From a virus, in the IMG/VR virus record IMGVR_UViG_3300022925_000107, positions 1 through 31,201 of that record: a stretch of DNA of 31,201 nucleotides; one strand, 5' to 3'. The notes beneath the pieces were generated by a model. It was not told the origin of the DNA. It worked only from the letters and a program-made list of their open reading frames with translations, and searched no databases. Below are positions 4,766 to 14,589 of the stretch, in pieces (positions within the stretch are counted from its first letter, which is position 1; the number at the start of each line of letters is the position of its first letter). Both the position numbers and the translations under genes were made by a program.

Positions 4766-4824
4766 TTATATCTCCTATTTGTTTTTGGTATGCTCAGTAT
4801 ATCATAAGTAAATAAGAATGTCAA
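4766..4824 (-). promoter_or_regulatory. Strong leftward early promoter and leader
   Basis: On the minus strand TTGACA (4819-4824), a 17-bp spacer and TATACT (4796-4801) form a near-perfect sigma-70-type promoter. The leader ATACCAAAAACAAATAGGAG leads to the start at 4765. It should drive the long operon toward the left edge using host RNA polymerase. Confidence 0.85.
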
Positions 4825-4838
4825 CTATTTTTTTTAGC

Positions 4839-4882
4839 GTCCATTGACTGTCCATTTACTGTCCATTTACTGTCTATTGTTT
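4839..4882. repeat. Four 11-bp direct repeats between divergent promoters
   Basis: Units GTCCATTGACT (4839-4849), GTCCATTTACT (4850-4860), GTCCATTTACT (4861-4871) and GTCTATTGTTT (4872-4882) follow each other without gaps. The 11-bp step places each unit on the same DNA face. The position, 15 bp behind the leftward -35 and 43 bp before the rightward -35, suggests an operator array for a regulator, or iterons. AT-rich DNA (4895-4922) follows. Confidence 0.75.
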
Positions 4883-4924
4883 CACGATCCGTTTTATGTT
4901 ATTAAATTTTTTTTTAAAAAAGTA

Positions 4925-4952
4925 TTGACAAAGTAAATAATAGGTGTATAAT
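4925..4952 (+). promoter_or_regulatory. Strong rightward promoter before the tRNA-like gene
   Basis: TTGACA (4925-4930), a 16-bp spacer and TATAAT (4947-4952) are both perfect consensus boxes. Transcription would start near 4959 and run into the tRNA-like gene at 4991. No protein gene on this strand follows before 7734, so the product is expected to be RNA only. Confidence 0.8.
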
Positions 4953-4990
4953 AGTATCTAACTAAATAAGAAAAGGATAGTATTTATTTG

Positions 4991-5181
4991 GAAAGAGTCG
5001 TCTAAAAGTATATATGTAATATGTTAGGTTTTAGCGGACTGCTCTATTTAGCGATAGAGTGCAGAAAGATATATACAACCGACCTTGTAAATCGCAAACA
5101 TTCTAGACTAGGTTGTGTGTTGGGTAGGTAAGACTCCAAGTTTTCATCTTGGCAATGTGAGTTAAAGTCCCACCTCTTTCC
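4991..5181 (+). tRNA. tRNA-Glu(UUC)-like gene with a 119-nt D-loop insertion
   Basis: Cloverleaf parts: acceptor GAAAGAG (4991-4997) pairs with CTCTTTC (5174-5180); T8, C9; D-stem GTCT (5000-5003) pairs with AGAC (5131-5134); anticodon stem CCAAG/CTTGG (5136-5140, 5148-5152) around TTTTCAT, giving anticodon TTC; variable CAAT; T-stem GTGAG/CCCAC with one A-C mismatch and loop TTAAAGT. Removing 5008-5126 leaves D-loop AAAAGGTA, with A14, G18G19 and A21 in place, and a 72-nt tRNA. Oddities: the T-loop lacks C56, CCA is not encoded, and the insertion must be removed for a normal tRNA. It could be a decayed or split gene, or an attachment-site remnant. Confidence 0.65.
5008..5126 (+). ncRNA. Foldable insertion inside the tRNA D-loop
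   Basis: About 119 nt with its own structure: GTATATAT (5008-5015) pairs with ATATATAC (5069-5076); inside it CTG plus CTCTAT (5039-5047) pairs with ATAGAG and CAG (5054-5064) around a 6-nt loop; and ACAACC (5075-5080) can pair with GGTTGT (5111-5116), in competition with the first stem by two bases. It is too short for a usual group I intron, I see no P7-type core in the right order, and no ORF lies in it. An unusual intron or a structural insertion are both possible. Confidence 0.45.
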
Positions 5182-5282
5182 CAAATAAGTATTACCTTTT
5201 AATTTGCATGACATGAATAACATTAAATTCAAAAAGTCACAGGGATTTTTTTTAAAATAAAAATTCTCCCTACAAAATTTTT
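5182..5282. other. AT-rich spacer after the tRNA-like gene
   Basis: No gene seen. It holds an imperfect hairpin (AGGGA at 5241-5245 with TCCCT at 5267-5271, plus a T-run and A-run in the arms) that could slow or end transcription of the tRNA-like RNA, though it is not a clear terminator. Confidence 0.3.
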
Positions 5283-5381
5283 GCTTTGCCCTGTCGGTCA
5301 AAGCGGTTGGAAAGGTAATCCCTGCGGGATTGGTTTTGCTGACACAAGGTCAGCGGGAAAGGTATCAGCAAGAAGCTGATA
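5283..5381. repeat. Hairpin cluster A (CCTGTCGG/AAAGGTA family)
   Basis: Four perfect short hairpins in a row: GCTTTG/CAAAGC (5283-5304, loop with CCTGTCGG), AATCCC/GGGATT (5317-5331, CCTGCGGG across the loop), GCTGAC/GTCAGC (5338-5354) and TATCAGC/GCTGATA (5363-5381). They are joined by GGTTGGAAAGGTA and GGGAAAGGTA linkers and preceded by AAAATTTTT. The same plan recurs in clusters B and C. Stems differ while loops and linkers are kept, which fits a structural family rather than simple duplication. Confidence 0.7.
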
Positions 5382-5397
5382 GAATTGGGTGCGAAAA

Positions 5398-5420
5398 TCG
5401 GGAAGCGTTTAACTTCCCGA
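5398..5420 (-). terminator. Leftward terminator after the ArdC-like gene
   Basis: An 8-bp perfect stem TCGGGAAG/CTTCCCGA with a 7-nt loop lies a few bases past the stop of the 5426-6283 gene. On the minus strand it is followed by a short T-run (ATTTTCG), consistent with a Rho-independent terminator. Confidence 0.6.
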
Positions 5421-5425
5421 GAATC

Positions 5426-6283
5426 TTATGCAACTTTTTTCAATTGCTCTTGGCACTTGATGAGATAGTCAAACGCTCTGCCACTTTGTGCTGATGCTTT
5501 AAAGATTAGATTATTATCATTCTCTAATGCTTCCAACCAGTTATTCAAATACTTCGCATGATTTTCTAGTGGTTTCTTTTCAACGCCTAAATGAACTGAA
5601 AGAAATGTGCTTCCAATCTCTGCAACTAATTCCTCAAAAGCGTATTCGGTTTTGTTGGTTGATTGTTTTCTGTCGCATCTGGTTTCGTGCTTTGTCCAAT
5701 GTGTTAATTCATGTAAAAGAGTTGCGTAATAATTTTGCTCTGCTGTTGCTCCGTCAACATCTAGAAAAGATTTTTTGTTTGGCATGTTTATATAATCCAT
5801 GCTTGGAAAATAATAAGCTGAGTTTTCGTTGTGTTGAATCGTTGCCCCAGTATTCCAAACAAACTGCTCAACATTTTTAAAGTCCTCAAACGCTCTGCCG
5901 TTCTCTTCTGGTTGTTGATAATCCTCTAACTGTTCCTCATTAAATACTGCGTAAGTTTTTAGCATTGGGATTTTTTTATCTTCGCCACCCTCTTCATTTT
6001 CTTTGACCAAAGTTTTATAGAAAATAATTTGCGTTGCCTTTGACCCTTTGCGAACTTGTCTGCCTTGCTCAGTCCATTGTTTGTATGTTGCCCACTTGTC
6101 TGAACTTGCACCGCTCATCATTAGCAAGATTGGATTAATACCCTGATAGTAATTTTTAGTTACTGCATTTTTTGGAAATCCTGCGTTGCCACCTGCCCAC
6201 GATTTAATCCAGTCCTTGCCATTGTCTTTCATTAAGTCAATGATTTGATTTGTTACTTGCTTTTTAAATTCTTGTGCTTTCAT
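5426..6283 (-). CDS. ArdC-like antirestriction protein with zincin motif
   Basis: 285 aa from MKAQEFKKQVTNQIIDLM. The N-terminal domain (1-130) has WIKSWAGGNAGFPKNAVTKN, YYQGINPILLMM and WATYKQWTEQGRQVRKGSKA, the DUF1738/ArdC ssDNA-binding signature. The C-terminal domain has HELTHW (about 193-198) and EELVAEIGSTFL, giving the HExxH plus downstream Glu of a gluzincin-type metallopeptidase. ArdC proteins protect incoming DNA from host restriction. I start at 6283 because the -10 box of its promoter lies inside the longer reading frame and AGAGG precedes this ATG. It is a single-gene unit between hairpin clusters A and B. Confidence 0.85.
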   Translation of the reverse strand: MKAQEFKKQVTNQIIDLMKDNGKDWIKSWAGGNAGFPKNAVTKNYYQGINPILLMMSGASSDKWATYKQWTEQGRQVRKGSKATQIIFYKTLVKENEEGGEDKKIPMLKTYAVFNEEQLEDYQQPEENGRAFEDFKNVEQFVWNTGATIQHNENSAYYFPSMDYINMPNKKSFLDVDGATAEQNYYATLLHELTHWTKHETRCDRKQSTNKTEYAFEELVAEIGSTFLSVHLGVEKKPLENHAKYLNNWLEALENDNNLIFKASAQSGRAFDYLIKCQEQLKKVA

Positions 6284-6343
6284 TTGTATACCTCTTTGTT
6301 GTTTTGGTATGTTTATTATATACCAAGTAAATATAAAATGCAA
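6284..6343 (-). promoter_or_regulatory. Leftward promoter and leader of the ArdC-like gene
   Basis: Minus strand: TTGCAT (6338-6343), a 17-bp spacer, TATAAT (6315-6320), then ATACCAAAACAACAAAGAGG and the start at 6283. The leader box belongs to the family described for seven early genes. Confidence 0.75.
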
Positions 6344-7061: not shown

Positions 7062-7121
7062 TTTTATCTCCTTTTTTGTTTTGGTATGTGTATATTATAT
7101 CAAATGTATATACTTTGTCAA
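7062..7121 (-). promoter_or_regulatory. Perfect leftward promoter and leader
   Basis: Minus strand: TTGACA (7116-7121), a 16-bp spacer, TATAAT (7094-7099), then ATACCAAAACAAAAAAGGAG and the start at 7061. Both boxes match consensus exactly. Confidence 0.85.
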
Positions 7122-7140
7122 CACTTTATTATAATAAAAA

Positions 7141-7170
7141 AATCGATAGTAAACTAATCAACAATCGATT
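7141..7170. repeat. Inverted repeat with paired ATCGAT palindromes
   Basis: AATCGAT (7141-7147) and ATCGATT (7164-7170) form a 7-bp inverted repeat. The two ATCGAT palindromes are 22 bp apart, two helical turns. They lie 20 bp behind the -35 of the perfect leftward promoter, where an activator or repressor could bind. Function is inferred. Confidence 0.4.
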
Positions 7171-7204
7171 AATTCTATAATTGTTTAATAGTAAAAAAAT
7201 TTTT

Positions 7205-7370
7205 CCTCGCTCCCTGTCGGTCACTCGGTTGGAAGAAAGGATTCGCTGTTCGCTCACCAAGTGGTTTGCCTGTCGGCAAAAAGGTATCTTCCCTGTCGGT
7301 CAGATGTTGTCGACCCACCTGCGTGGTTGTGTGTCCTTGTTGGTTTGGGTTGTGAATCCTGCTGACATTC
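7205..7370. repeat. Hairpin cluster C (CCTGTCGG/AAAGGTA family)
   Basis: Contains three CCTGTCGG copies (7213-7220, 7269-7276, 7292-7299). The clearest hairpins are TTTGCC/GGCAAA (7265-7280) and ATCT/AGAT around CCTGTCGG (7287-7304), joined by AAAAAGGTA. The opening segment CCCTGTCGGTCA...CGGTTGGAA..AAAGG matches the start of cluster A closely. Looser CCTGCGTGG and CCTGCTGAC loops (7318-7370) extend it. It is preceded by an A-run and TTTTT and lies between the leftward promoter and the 11-bp repeats at 7379. Frames open across it encode no credible protein. Confidence 0.65.
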
Positions 7371-7378
7371 ATTTACAG

Positions 7379-7422
7379 TTCGTAACGAAGTCGTAACGCA
7401 GAGTACAACGCTTCGTAACTAG
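7379..7422. repeat. Intergenic 11-bp repeats matching those in the O-like gene
   Basis: At exact 11-bp steps: TTCGTAACGAA (7379-7389), GTCGTAACGCA (7390-7400), degenerate GAGTACAACGC (7401-7411) and TTCGTAACTAG (7412-7422). The first copy differs from CTCGTAACGAA at 1091-1101 by one base. Same unit, same period, same strand sense as the intragenic array, so the same protein probably binds both. It could be an origin or packaging (cosB/pac-like) site; the sequence does not decide. Confidence 0.6.
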
Positions 7423-7698
7423 AGGTTGTTTCCTACCAACTACCCGTTAAACTGATGGTCATTGGGTACCGAGGGGGGACCCACAAACGCAGTTGGGTTA
7501 TTGTGTATATACTATCCCTAGCACATGAAACAGGATTTGGACTTGGTCGAGCCAAGCAGAGTGTACATCACTACAAGGCTCTTGTTGTTTTTGGAGAGTT
7601 TCCGCACTCGAAGCTGAAGTAGTTAACAACCAGTTTGGAAAGATTCGATTTTAGCTGATGAATTGAATTCCGTCAAACTCTAATATTAAATATAAGAT
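7423..7698. other. Noncoding spacer with GC-rich block, possible packaging site
   Basis: No supported gene; a 30-codon frame from 7525 lacks a ribosome site. The stretch is richer in GC than its surroundings. It includes GGGTACCGAGGGGGGACCC (7464-7482), whose GGGT/ACCC ends can pair around a run of six G, and a CTTGG/CCAAG hairpin (about 7541-7555). Lying just before TerS and 42 bp after the 11-bp array, it is a reasonable place for the cleavage site used in packaging. This is positional inference only. Confidence 0.35.
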
Positions 7699-7727
7699 TT
7701 GTTATTTGTTTGTTTATTGTGTATATT
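7699..7727 (+). promoter_or_regulatory. Possible late promoter before TerS
   Basis: TTGTTA (7699-7704), a 17-bp spacer and TATATT (7722-7727), followed by ACG. The same TATATTACG occurs at 9431-9439 before the portal gene. Transcription would begin about at the TerS ATG, implying a leaderless message; alternatively the true promoter lies further upstream. Confidence 0.4.
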
Positions 7728-9457: not shown

Positions 9458-11416
9458 ATGGACCAAAATAAAGAATCACAATATCAAGCATTATCTGGTT
9501 GGTTAATGTACCGATTAGAGTCTTGGAGAAATCATAGAGATACTAATTACGAACAGAAATGGGATGAATACTACAGATTGTGGCGTGGTATTTGGTCAAG
9601 TGAAGATGTTGTTCGTTTATCTGAAAAGTCTAGAATCATATCTCCCGCATTACAACAAGCTGTAGAAGCTGCGGTTGCAGAATTAGAAGAAGCTACATTT
9701 GGTCGTGGTAAGTGGTTTGATTTACAAGATGATTATTTAGACCAACAAGATAGAGATGCAGAGTTTGTACGCAATTTATTACAAGAAGATTTAGAAAAAA
9801 CAGGTTGTAAAGACGCAATTAACGAAGTATTCCTTAATGGTGCTATTTATGGTACTGGTATTGCTAAGATTGTAGTAGAAGAAAGTATAGAAAGAGTACC
9901 AAGTCAAATGCCAATTGAAGGAACAATGGCATCTGAGCGTACTGTTAGTGAATTTATGGGCATTGATGTTAAAGTTGAGCCTATTTCACCTAAAGAATTT
10001 ATCATGGACCCGTCTGCAAACTCTATTGAAGATGCATTAGGGGTAGCACATGAGGTTATTAAACCTAGATACCATGTAATTGAAGGTATTAAAGCTGGAA
10101 TTTACAGAGATGTACCGCTAGATGGCGACTACAACATTAATGATTTTGGATTTGACGAAGAAATGCATCAAGCAGATGAGTCTGATTCCGTAAAAATTAC
10201 AGAATATTGGGGTCTTGTACCAAAACGCTTCCTAAAAGCTAAGGCTGACAAGGATGATTTTGAATATGACTCTAAAGATGAGATGGTTGAAGCTGTTGTT
10301 ACAGTAGTAAACGATGCATATATCCTAAGAGCAGAAGAAAATGCGTTTATGATGAAAGATAGACCATTTATTGCTTACCAACATGACATAGTACCCAACA
10401 AATTCTGGGGGCGTGGTATATGTGAGAAGGGATACAATGTACAAAAAGCACTAGATACGGAAATGAGAGCAAGAATTGACTCTCTTGCACTAACAACTAC
10501 ACCTATGATGGCTGCTGATGCAACTAAATTGCCACGAGGTGTGAAGTTTGAGGTTAGACCTGGAAAAACTGTACTAACAAATGGCGACCCTCGTACTGCA
10601 TTGTTCCCATTAAACATGGGTCAGACAGATACAGCTACATTTACGCAAGTAAACGCACTAAATCAGATGGTACAGATGGCGACTGGTTCTGCAGACATGC
10701 AAGTTGCAGACAGAGCTACATCTTCTGGTATGTCAATGGCACTTGCAGCAAGTATTAAACGCCAAAAGCGTACATTAATGAATTTCCAAAACACATTCTT
10801 GATTCCTATGATTAATAAATCATTACATCGTAAGATTCAGTTTGATGTAAACAGATACCCAGTAGTAGATGTTAAGTTTATTCCATATTCAAGTATGGGG
10901 ATTATGGCAAAAGAACTAGAAATGCAGCAAATGGTACAGATGATGCAATCAATGCCTAAAGATTCACCTGCATTTAACATCTTATTGATGACTATGTTCC
11001 AAAACTCTACTATTCATAACAGAGATGCGATAGTAAATAGACTATCACAAGCATTGAATCCGACTCCAGAGCAACAACAAATGCAACAGATGGGTATTCA
11101 AATGCAAATGCAAAAAGCACAAGCTGAGATTCAGAAGATACAAGCTGAGGCAGCAGAAGAAAATGCTAAAGCACAACTTCACATGGCAGAAGCACAAAGA
11201 ACTGTACCAGATGAAGCAGATGCACAGAAGCATGTTCTTGATATGGAGCAAAAACGAATACAAATTGCTAAAGCAAAAGCAGATATAGCAAACAAGATGT
11301 CAGAAACTGATAGAAATATTCCAGAAACTGAGCATCTTAAATCTGAAACTGCACTTAATTTAGCAACTGCGGCTGAAAAAGCACAAAAAGTTAACTTAGG
11401 AACTAACATACAGTAA
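9458..11416 (+). CDS. Portal protein (head-tail connector)
   Basis: 652 aa. The N-terminal part (YRLESWRNHRDTNYEQKWDE, YYRLWRGIWSS) and the IYGTGIAKIVVEE / PISPKEFIMDPSA / HDIVPNKFWGRGICEKGYN blocks are typical of podovirus portal proteins, which form the dodecameric ring for packaging and tail attachment. The last 130 residues are Gln/Ala-rich (QQQMQQMGIQMQMQKAQAEI) and predicted coiled coil, matching the barrel/helical extension of long portals. It follows terL and precedes scaffold and capsid genes in standard order. No ribosome site is visible before the ATG. Confidence 0.9.
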   Translation: MDQNKESQYQALSGWLMYRLESWRNHRDTNYEQKWDEYYRLWRGIWSSEDVVRLSEKSRIISPALQQAVEAAVAELEEATFGRGKWFDLQDDYLDQQDRDAEFVRNLLQEDLEKTGCKDAINEVFLNGAIYGTGIAKIVVEESIERVPSQMPIEGTMASERTVSEFMGIDVKVEPISPKEFIMDPSANSIEDALGVAHEVIKPRYHVIEGIKAGIYRDVPLDGDYNINDFGFDEEMHQADESDSVKITEYWGLVPKRFLKAKADKDDFEYDSKDEMVEAVVTVVNDAYILRAEENAFMMKDRPFIAYQHDIVPNKFWGRGICEKGYNVQKALDTEMRARIDSLALTTTPMMAADATKLPRGVKFEVRPGKTVLTNGDPRTALFPLNMGQTDTATFTQVNALNQMVQMATGSADMQVADRATSSGMSMALAASIKRQKRTLMNFQNTFLIPMINKSLHRKIQFDVNRYPVVDVKFIPYSSMGIMAKELEMQQMVQMMQSMPKDSPAFNILLMTMFQNSTIHNRDAIVNRLSQALNPTPEQQQMQQMGIQMQMQKAQAEIQKIQAEAAEENAKAQLHMAEAQRTVPDEADAQKHVLDMEQKRIQIAKAKADIANKMSETDRNIPETEHLKSETALNLATAAEKAQKVNLGTNIQ

Positions 11417-14383: not shown

Positions 14384-14589
14384 AAATAGGCAGAAAGTTT
14401 CCACCAGTAAAACCAGCTCATTGGAGATTAAGAAAATCTAGAGCTAAATATCTTAACTTTAGACAATATAATTCTGAAAATTTACCAGAATATTCTGGAC
14501 CTTATGAGATTGAGTTAGAACAGAGTACAGAAACCAGTCCAATATATTTATATAATGAGCAAAACAACGCCTACATTATTACGGAGTAA
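14380..14589 (+). CDS. Hypothetical basic protein (69 aa)
   Basis: ATGA overlap with the previous gene. N-terminus strongly basic with aromatics (MKIGRKFPPVKPAHWRLRKS, RAKYLNFRQY), C-terminus acidic and beta-like (PYEIELEQSTETSPIYLYNE). No known family; possibly a small virion or adaptor protein. Confidence 0.6.
   Translation: MKIGRKFPPVKPAHWRLRKSRAKYLNFRQYNSENLPEYSGPYEIELEQSTETSPIYLYNEQNNAYIITE

Follow-up and report, generated by a model that had tools for sequence, protein, structure and literature searches.

We find that positions 4991-5181 (+ strand) of a phage genome record hold the two halves of one tRNA-Glu(UUC) gene, which complement each other far beyond chance and are separated in the D-loop by 119 nt. 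The window (the whole stretch of DNA that was analysed) is a linear virus record of 31,201 nt, whose genes for capsid, terminase, and portal proteins have matches among phage families and whose portal protein has its closest relatives mostly among HMO-2011-like marine podoviruses. On balance, and with about as much doubt as belief, we read the locus as a transcribed, unspliced, and probably decaying relic that no longer works as a tRNA gene. Bacterial tRNA genes are described as uniform, their sole interruptions being group I and group II introns, mainly at position 37/38 (PMC4033280). A D-loop interruption of more than 100 nt is a rare form of tRNA gene, and one that escapes standard tRNA finders. 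Splicing would make it a new class of intron; without splicing, it illustrates the decay of phage tRNA genes or their reuse as RNA scaffolds. The parts of the locus are as follows.

4991..5007, + strand: 5' half of tRNA-Glu, with acceptor GAAAGAG, T8 C9, D stem GTCT, and A14-A17.
5008..5126, + strand: D-loop insert of 119 nt, between positions 17 and 18, its junction ambiguous by one G.
5127..5181, + strand: 3' half of tRNA-Glu, starting with G18G19 and D stem AGAC (GGTA-AGAC, 5127-5134).
Within 5127..5181, + strand: anticodon arm CCAAG-TTTTCAT-CTTGG (UUC), then a 4-nt variable loop.
Within 5127..5181, + strand: T arm GTGAG-TTAAAGT-CCCAC and acceptor CTCTTTC, then C73 with no encoded CCA.
4991-4997/5174-5180, + strand: acceptor stem, 7/7 pairs.
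5000-5003/5131-5134, + strand: D stem, 4/4 pairs.
5136-5140/5148-5152, + strand: anticodon stem, 5/5 pairs.
5157-5161/5169-5173, + strand: T stem, 4/5 pairs, with an A52-C62 mismatch.

An earlier note on this DNA had described both cloverleaf halves, with perfect acceptor, D, and anticodon stems and 119 nt between A17 and G18G19; its coordinates and letters are correct, apart from the one-G ambiguity of the junction, and to its description we add the T-stem mismatch and an A at position 56. Altogether 20 of the 21 stem pairs are intact, and the features of a tRNA-Glu are kept (UUC anticodon, U11-A24, 4-nt variable loop). Leaving out 5008-5126 does restore a standard D-loop, of 8 nt, and the cloverleaf is then the minimum-free-energy fold of the joined sequence. 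A tRNA search with and without the insert gives the same answer: ARAGORN calls no tRNA gene in the intact window and a 73-nt tRNA-Glu(ttc) in the joined sequence. The 3' half calls for a 14-nt pattern in its 5' partner; this pattern is present once in the 31-kb window, at 4991, and not at all in 4 Mb of simulated first-order Markov sequence. Furthermore, a cloverleaf scan allowing a D-loop gap of up to ~800 nt, run over both strands of 2.5 Mb of fetched loci, returns this locus only.

The Rfam tRNA model scores 26.4 bits at 5111-5181, around the 3' half (gathering score 29). This alignment runs end to end along the tRNA, as would be expected if two tandem tRNA-Glu copies had stood here, the first keeping its 5' half and the second its 3' half, with worn tRNA and spacer as the insert; tandem and truncated tRNA-Glu copies are known in other viral contigs (L170, L177). 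However, the 5' half that the second copy would have had pairs at no more than 4/7 acceptor positions, and the 3' half of the first copy leaves no recognisable trace in the insert, making this the least probable of the readings that we weighed.

The split locus is found unchanged in two more IMG/VR contigs (3300018416_000239 and 3300022929_000455), which rules out an assembly error. Both are 99.88-99.94% identical to the window, with 9 and 18 differing sites over ~15 kb, and thus belong to the same phage population and add no evolutionary depth. The comparison of the locus across related phages that the earlier note had suggested therefore yields identity within one population, and neither a divergent homologue nor a compensatory change was found in the scanned viral contigs and genomes. 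The same anticodon arm, sought in viral contigs and genomes, occurs in this population only, with no occurrence in the species-level genome collection. The insert itself has only short chance matches in the window, the fetched loci, and the phage records, the best of them (in L013) lying inside a coding frame. No relative was found for a minus-strand frame at 5044-5301, and our search of the literature on D-loop inserts in phage tRNAs found none.

The insert had been described as structured, a claim that does not hold beyond chance: together with its flanks it folds no better than shuffled sequence (z = +0.23), the whole locus is close to its shuffles (z = -0.87), and the stems that had been named can form but are matched by shuffles that fold equally well. 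We also find no favourable effect of the real insert, relative to shuffled inserts, on the pairing probabilities of the cloverleaf. The check for group I and group II motifs with Rfam covariance models was negative: no group I, group II, or other family matches the insert over the whole window at gathering thresholds, and at E<=5 over 4850-5350 there is nothing but the tRNA match below threshold and a match to an miRNA that is due to chance.

These results bear on the possibility that the D-loop of this phage tRNA holds a small intron of a new type, or a spacer that is spliced out, with the 119 nt either splicing themselves or being removed by some nuclease and ligase. The exact geometry of the halves, with the 8-nt D-loop and minimum-free-energy cloverleaf of the joined sequence, is what such an intron would leave. 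Yet there is no U before the 5' junction, and 119 nt are too short for a group I core and fall below the length of any known group I intron. Group I introns likewise interrupt bacterial tRNA genes (cyanobacterial tRNA-Leu, proteobacterial tRNA-Ile/Arg), but they exceed ~200 nt and have P3-P8 cores, in contrast to an insert without an Rfam match. Their main site is also 37/38 in the anticodon loop, rather than the D-loop, and the earlier statement that known bacterial tRNA introns lie mainly in the anticodon arm agrees with the literature, in which the introns described so far belong to group I or II (PMC4033280). Archaeal tRNA introns at noncanonical positions are also small and can lie in the D-arm; these require a bulge-helix-bulge motif and the archaeal endonuclease, whereas no such motif is apparent by eye at the insert junctions, and the promoter and gene content here are bacterial. 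With no significant fold and no divergent homologue showing compensatory change, we consider splicing very improbable.

The product of splicing would in any case be an unusual tRNA. Position 56 of the joined sequence is A, and it is C in all 174 distinct tRNAs found by ARAGORN in the fetched loci. Among 30 viral tRNA-Glu(UUC), C56 and an intact 52-62 pair are present in every one (A-C here), and C73, the base of the joined tRNA, is present in one. Both sets of counts are somewhat biased by ARAGORN's preference for C56-type T-loops, although the program accepted the joined sequence with A56. In the tRNA elbow, C56 is paired with G19, and RNase P, RNase Z, the CCA enzyme, and the ribosome all make contact with this elbow (PMC4810234). 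This conserved elbow, with its paired T stem, is replaced here by A56 and A52-C62; together with C73 and the lack of an encoded CCA, they speak against a tRNA that could serve in translation, even after splicing.

Upstream of the locus, the promoter reported at 4925-4952 is indeed a perfect one, and a leader follows it.

4925..4952, + strand: sigma-70-type promoter, TTGACA-16-TATAAT, 12/12 consensus.
4953..4990, + strand: 5' leader with Shine-Dalgarno-like AAGGA.
TTG at 4988, + strand: micro-ORF of 5 codons, LERVV, then a stop.

A similar promoter and leader stand ahead of protein genes in L033 (an ArdC-like gene) and in Lactobacillus phage Lbab1, where the leaders, AAGGA included, precede start codons, and the 5' tRNA half starts roughly where a start codon would be expected behind such a leader. 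From its sequence, the promoter is probably active and would transcribe the locus. Repeated promoter-plus-leader units also lie on the - strand ahead of early genes, at window 4775-4816, 6294-6335, and 7071-7112.

A perfect promoter ahead of an intact acceptor stem and anticodon arm is also what one would expect of a tRNA-like RNA that stays unspliced and has a function, its ends and anticodon arm serving as a stable scaffold or decoy and the 119 nt as an extra domain. The targets of a decoy might be tRNA-binding factors or anticodon nucleases, and the architecture of such an RNA could be likened to that of tmRNA, with the insert in the D-loop. The tmRNA likewise has tRNA-like ends around an inserted RNA domain, but there the domain replaces the anticodon arm and encodes a tag, whereas here the anticodon arm is intact and there is no tag frame; neither ARAGORN nor Rfam calls a tmRNA over the window. 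The position of the insert, at a site where the D-loop tolerates additional RNA, fits this reading, as do other phage tRNA-Glu genes bearing D-loop hairpins. Against it, the insert is unstructured relative to shuffles and without a homologue, and C56 of the elbow is gone, while the hairpin-bearing tRNAs keep TTC. We regard an unspliced functional RNA as unlikely, though second in our ranking.

The hairpin-bearing genes came from scans for similar loci. Among 2.9 million viral contigs, a tRNA-Glu with a D-loop insert of ~84-144 nt occurs in this population only; the other matches of that scan are ordinary, often tandem tRNAs, plus one tRNA-Glu with a 25-nt D-loop (L184). A scan for shorter inserts returned five contigs with a tRNA-Glu(UUC) carrying, after position 20, a hairpin of ~15 nt, with inserts of 15-18 nt. 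The marine phage genes of this five-contig set, and L184, are located as follows.

L190, 4426-4514, - strand: tRNA-Glu(UUC) with D-loop hairpin.
L193, 386-474: the same.
L196, ~4832-4920: the same.
L204, ~867-955, - strand: the same.
L208, 8954-9042, - strand: the same.
L184, ~10300-10390, - strand: tRNA-Glu(UUC) with a 25-nt D-loop and a 15-nt hairpin, GAGGT-TAATT-ACCTC, beside an ordinary tRNA-Glu copy.

Like the split gene, all of these are phage tRNA-Glu(UUC) genes with a D-loop insert, and they establish that phage tRNA-Glu D-loops can carry extra hairpins. Unlike the 119-nt insert, with which they share no sequence kinship, their hairpins of 15-18 nt follow G18G19 and stay within the range of the tRNA model (36-39 bits in 4/5, above the gathering score), and C56 (TTC) is kept. 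In the anticodon stem, the five also have two conserved T-T mismatches. Covariation among their hairpins is thinly supported, by one compensatory double change in three distinct rows, a level reached by 165/500 shuffles.

The 78 loci of phages with the same terminase yielded no tRNA, so that the tRNA-Glu gene appears as a sporadic acquisition. Four temperate relatives with this terminase have, as their sole tRNA-model matches, sub-threshold 3' ends of host tRNAs beside tyrosine integrases. These lie ~3-5 kb upstream of the terminase, at the map position that the split locus has in the window, and are probably attP sites.

L039, 800-864: attP-like site.
L084, 782-836: attP-like site.
L042, record 14477-14540: attP-like site.
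L023, 5710-5769: attP-like site.

At the attP-like sites there are also near-threshold matches to Rfam HPnc0260 (L220 1377-1536, L221 695-835, L222 669-809), at 44-50 bits (gathering 59). The best-aligned part of these matches is the antisense of a tRNA T-arm, and the HPnc0260 family may thus include such tRNA fragments.

The similar map position raises the possibility that the locus is a remnant of the integration module of a temperate relative, with a 3' half that began as the host tRNA 3' end copied in an attP and was later rearranged. An attP, however, requires the 3' part alone, beside an integrase and without a matching 5' half, and the 3' half in the window has a perfect 5' match upstream of it. 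The 31-kb record, which may be incomplete, has no integrase (PF00589), and the anticodon arm of the 3' half is absent from the species-level genome collection. In addition, with A56 and no CCA, the 3' half would be unable to restore a host tRNA. The matching 5' half and the lack of an integrase mean that an attP alone does not explain the locus, and we hold this origin to be improbable.

The relic is thus the best supported of these explanations, followed in order by the functional unspliced RNA, the integration remnant, the intron, and the tandem copies. Of the three readings offered in the earlier note (intron, scaffold, or relic), the relic fits best and the split geometry on which they were based stands, while the intron has gained no positive evidence. 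In the scenario that we favour, 119 nt would have entered the D-loop of a sporadically acquired tRNA-Glu(UUC) gene, and an early-type sigma-70 promoter would transcribe the interrupted gene. The insert would stay in the RNA, as nothing would remove it; the RNA would have no present use, and the gene is probably decaying. Consistent with a relic, the joined halves are recognised as tRNA-Glu(ttc), yet the insert has neither a significant fold nor an Rfam match; C56 and one T-stem pair are lost and position 73 is C; and the gene is sporadic among terminase relatives, with an insert of this size class confined to one population. Some observations sit less easily with it: 20/21 stem pairs and the Glu features are much for a relic to retain in a phage whose genome is compact, the promoter matches the consensus perfectly, and the insert follows position 17, among the few D-loop sites sterically tolerant of extra RNA. 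With no divergent homologues to compare, decay itself is not demonstrable from the sequence.

The neighbouring noncoding DNA has features of its own. In the stretch from the tRNA-like locus to where the ArdC-like gene has its 3' end, window 5230-5430 contains 4-5 GC-richer hairpins, an array far more stable than its shuffles (z = -5.8 on the - strand, -3.4 on the + strand), for which we found no significant Rfam match and no relative outside the population. A 12-13-base repeat, CCCTGTCGGTCA, occurs at window 5288-5300, 7211-7223, and 7290-7302, its copies sitting in two long noncoding stretches, 5181-5425 and 7062-7709.
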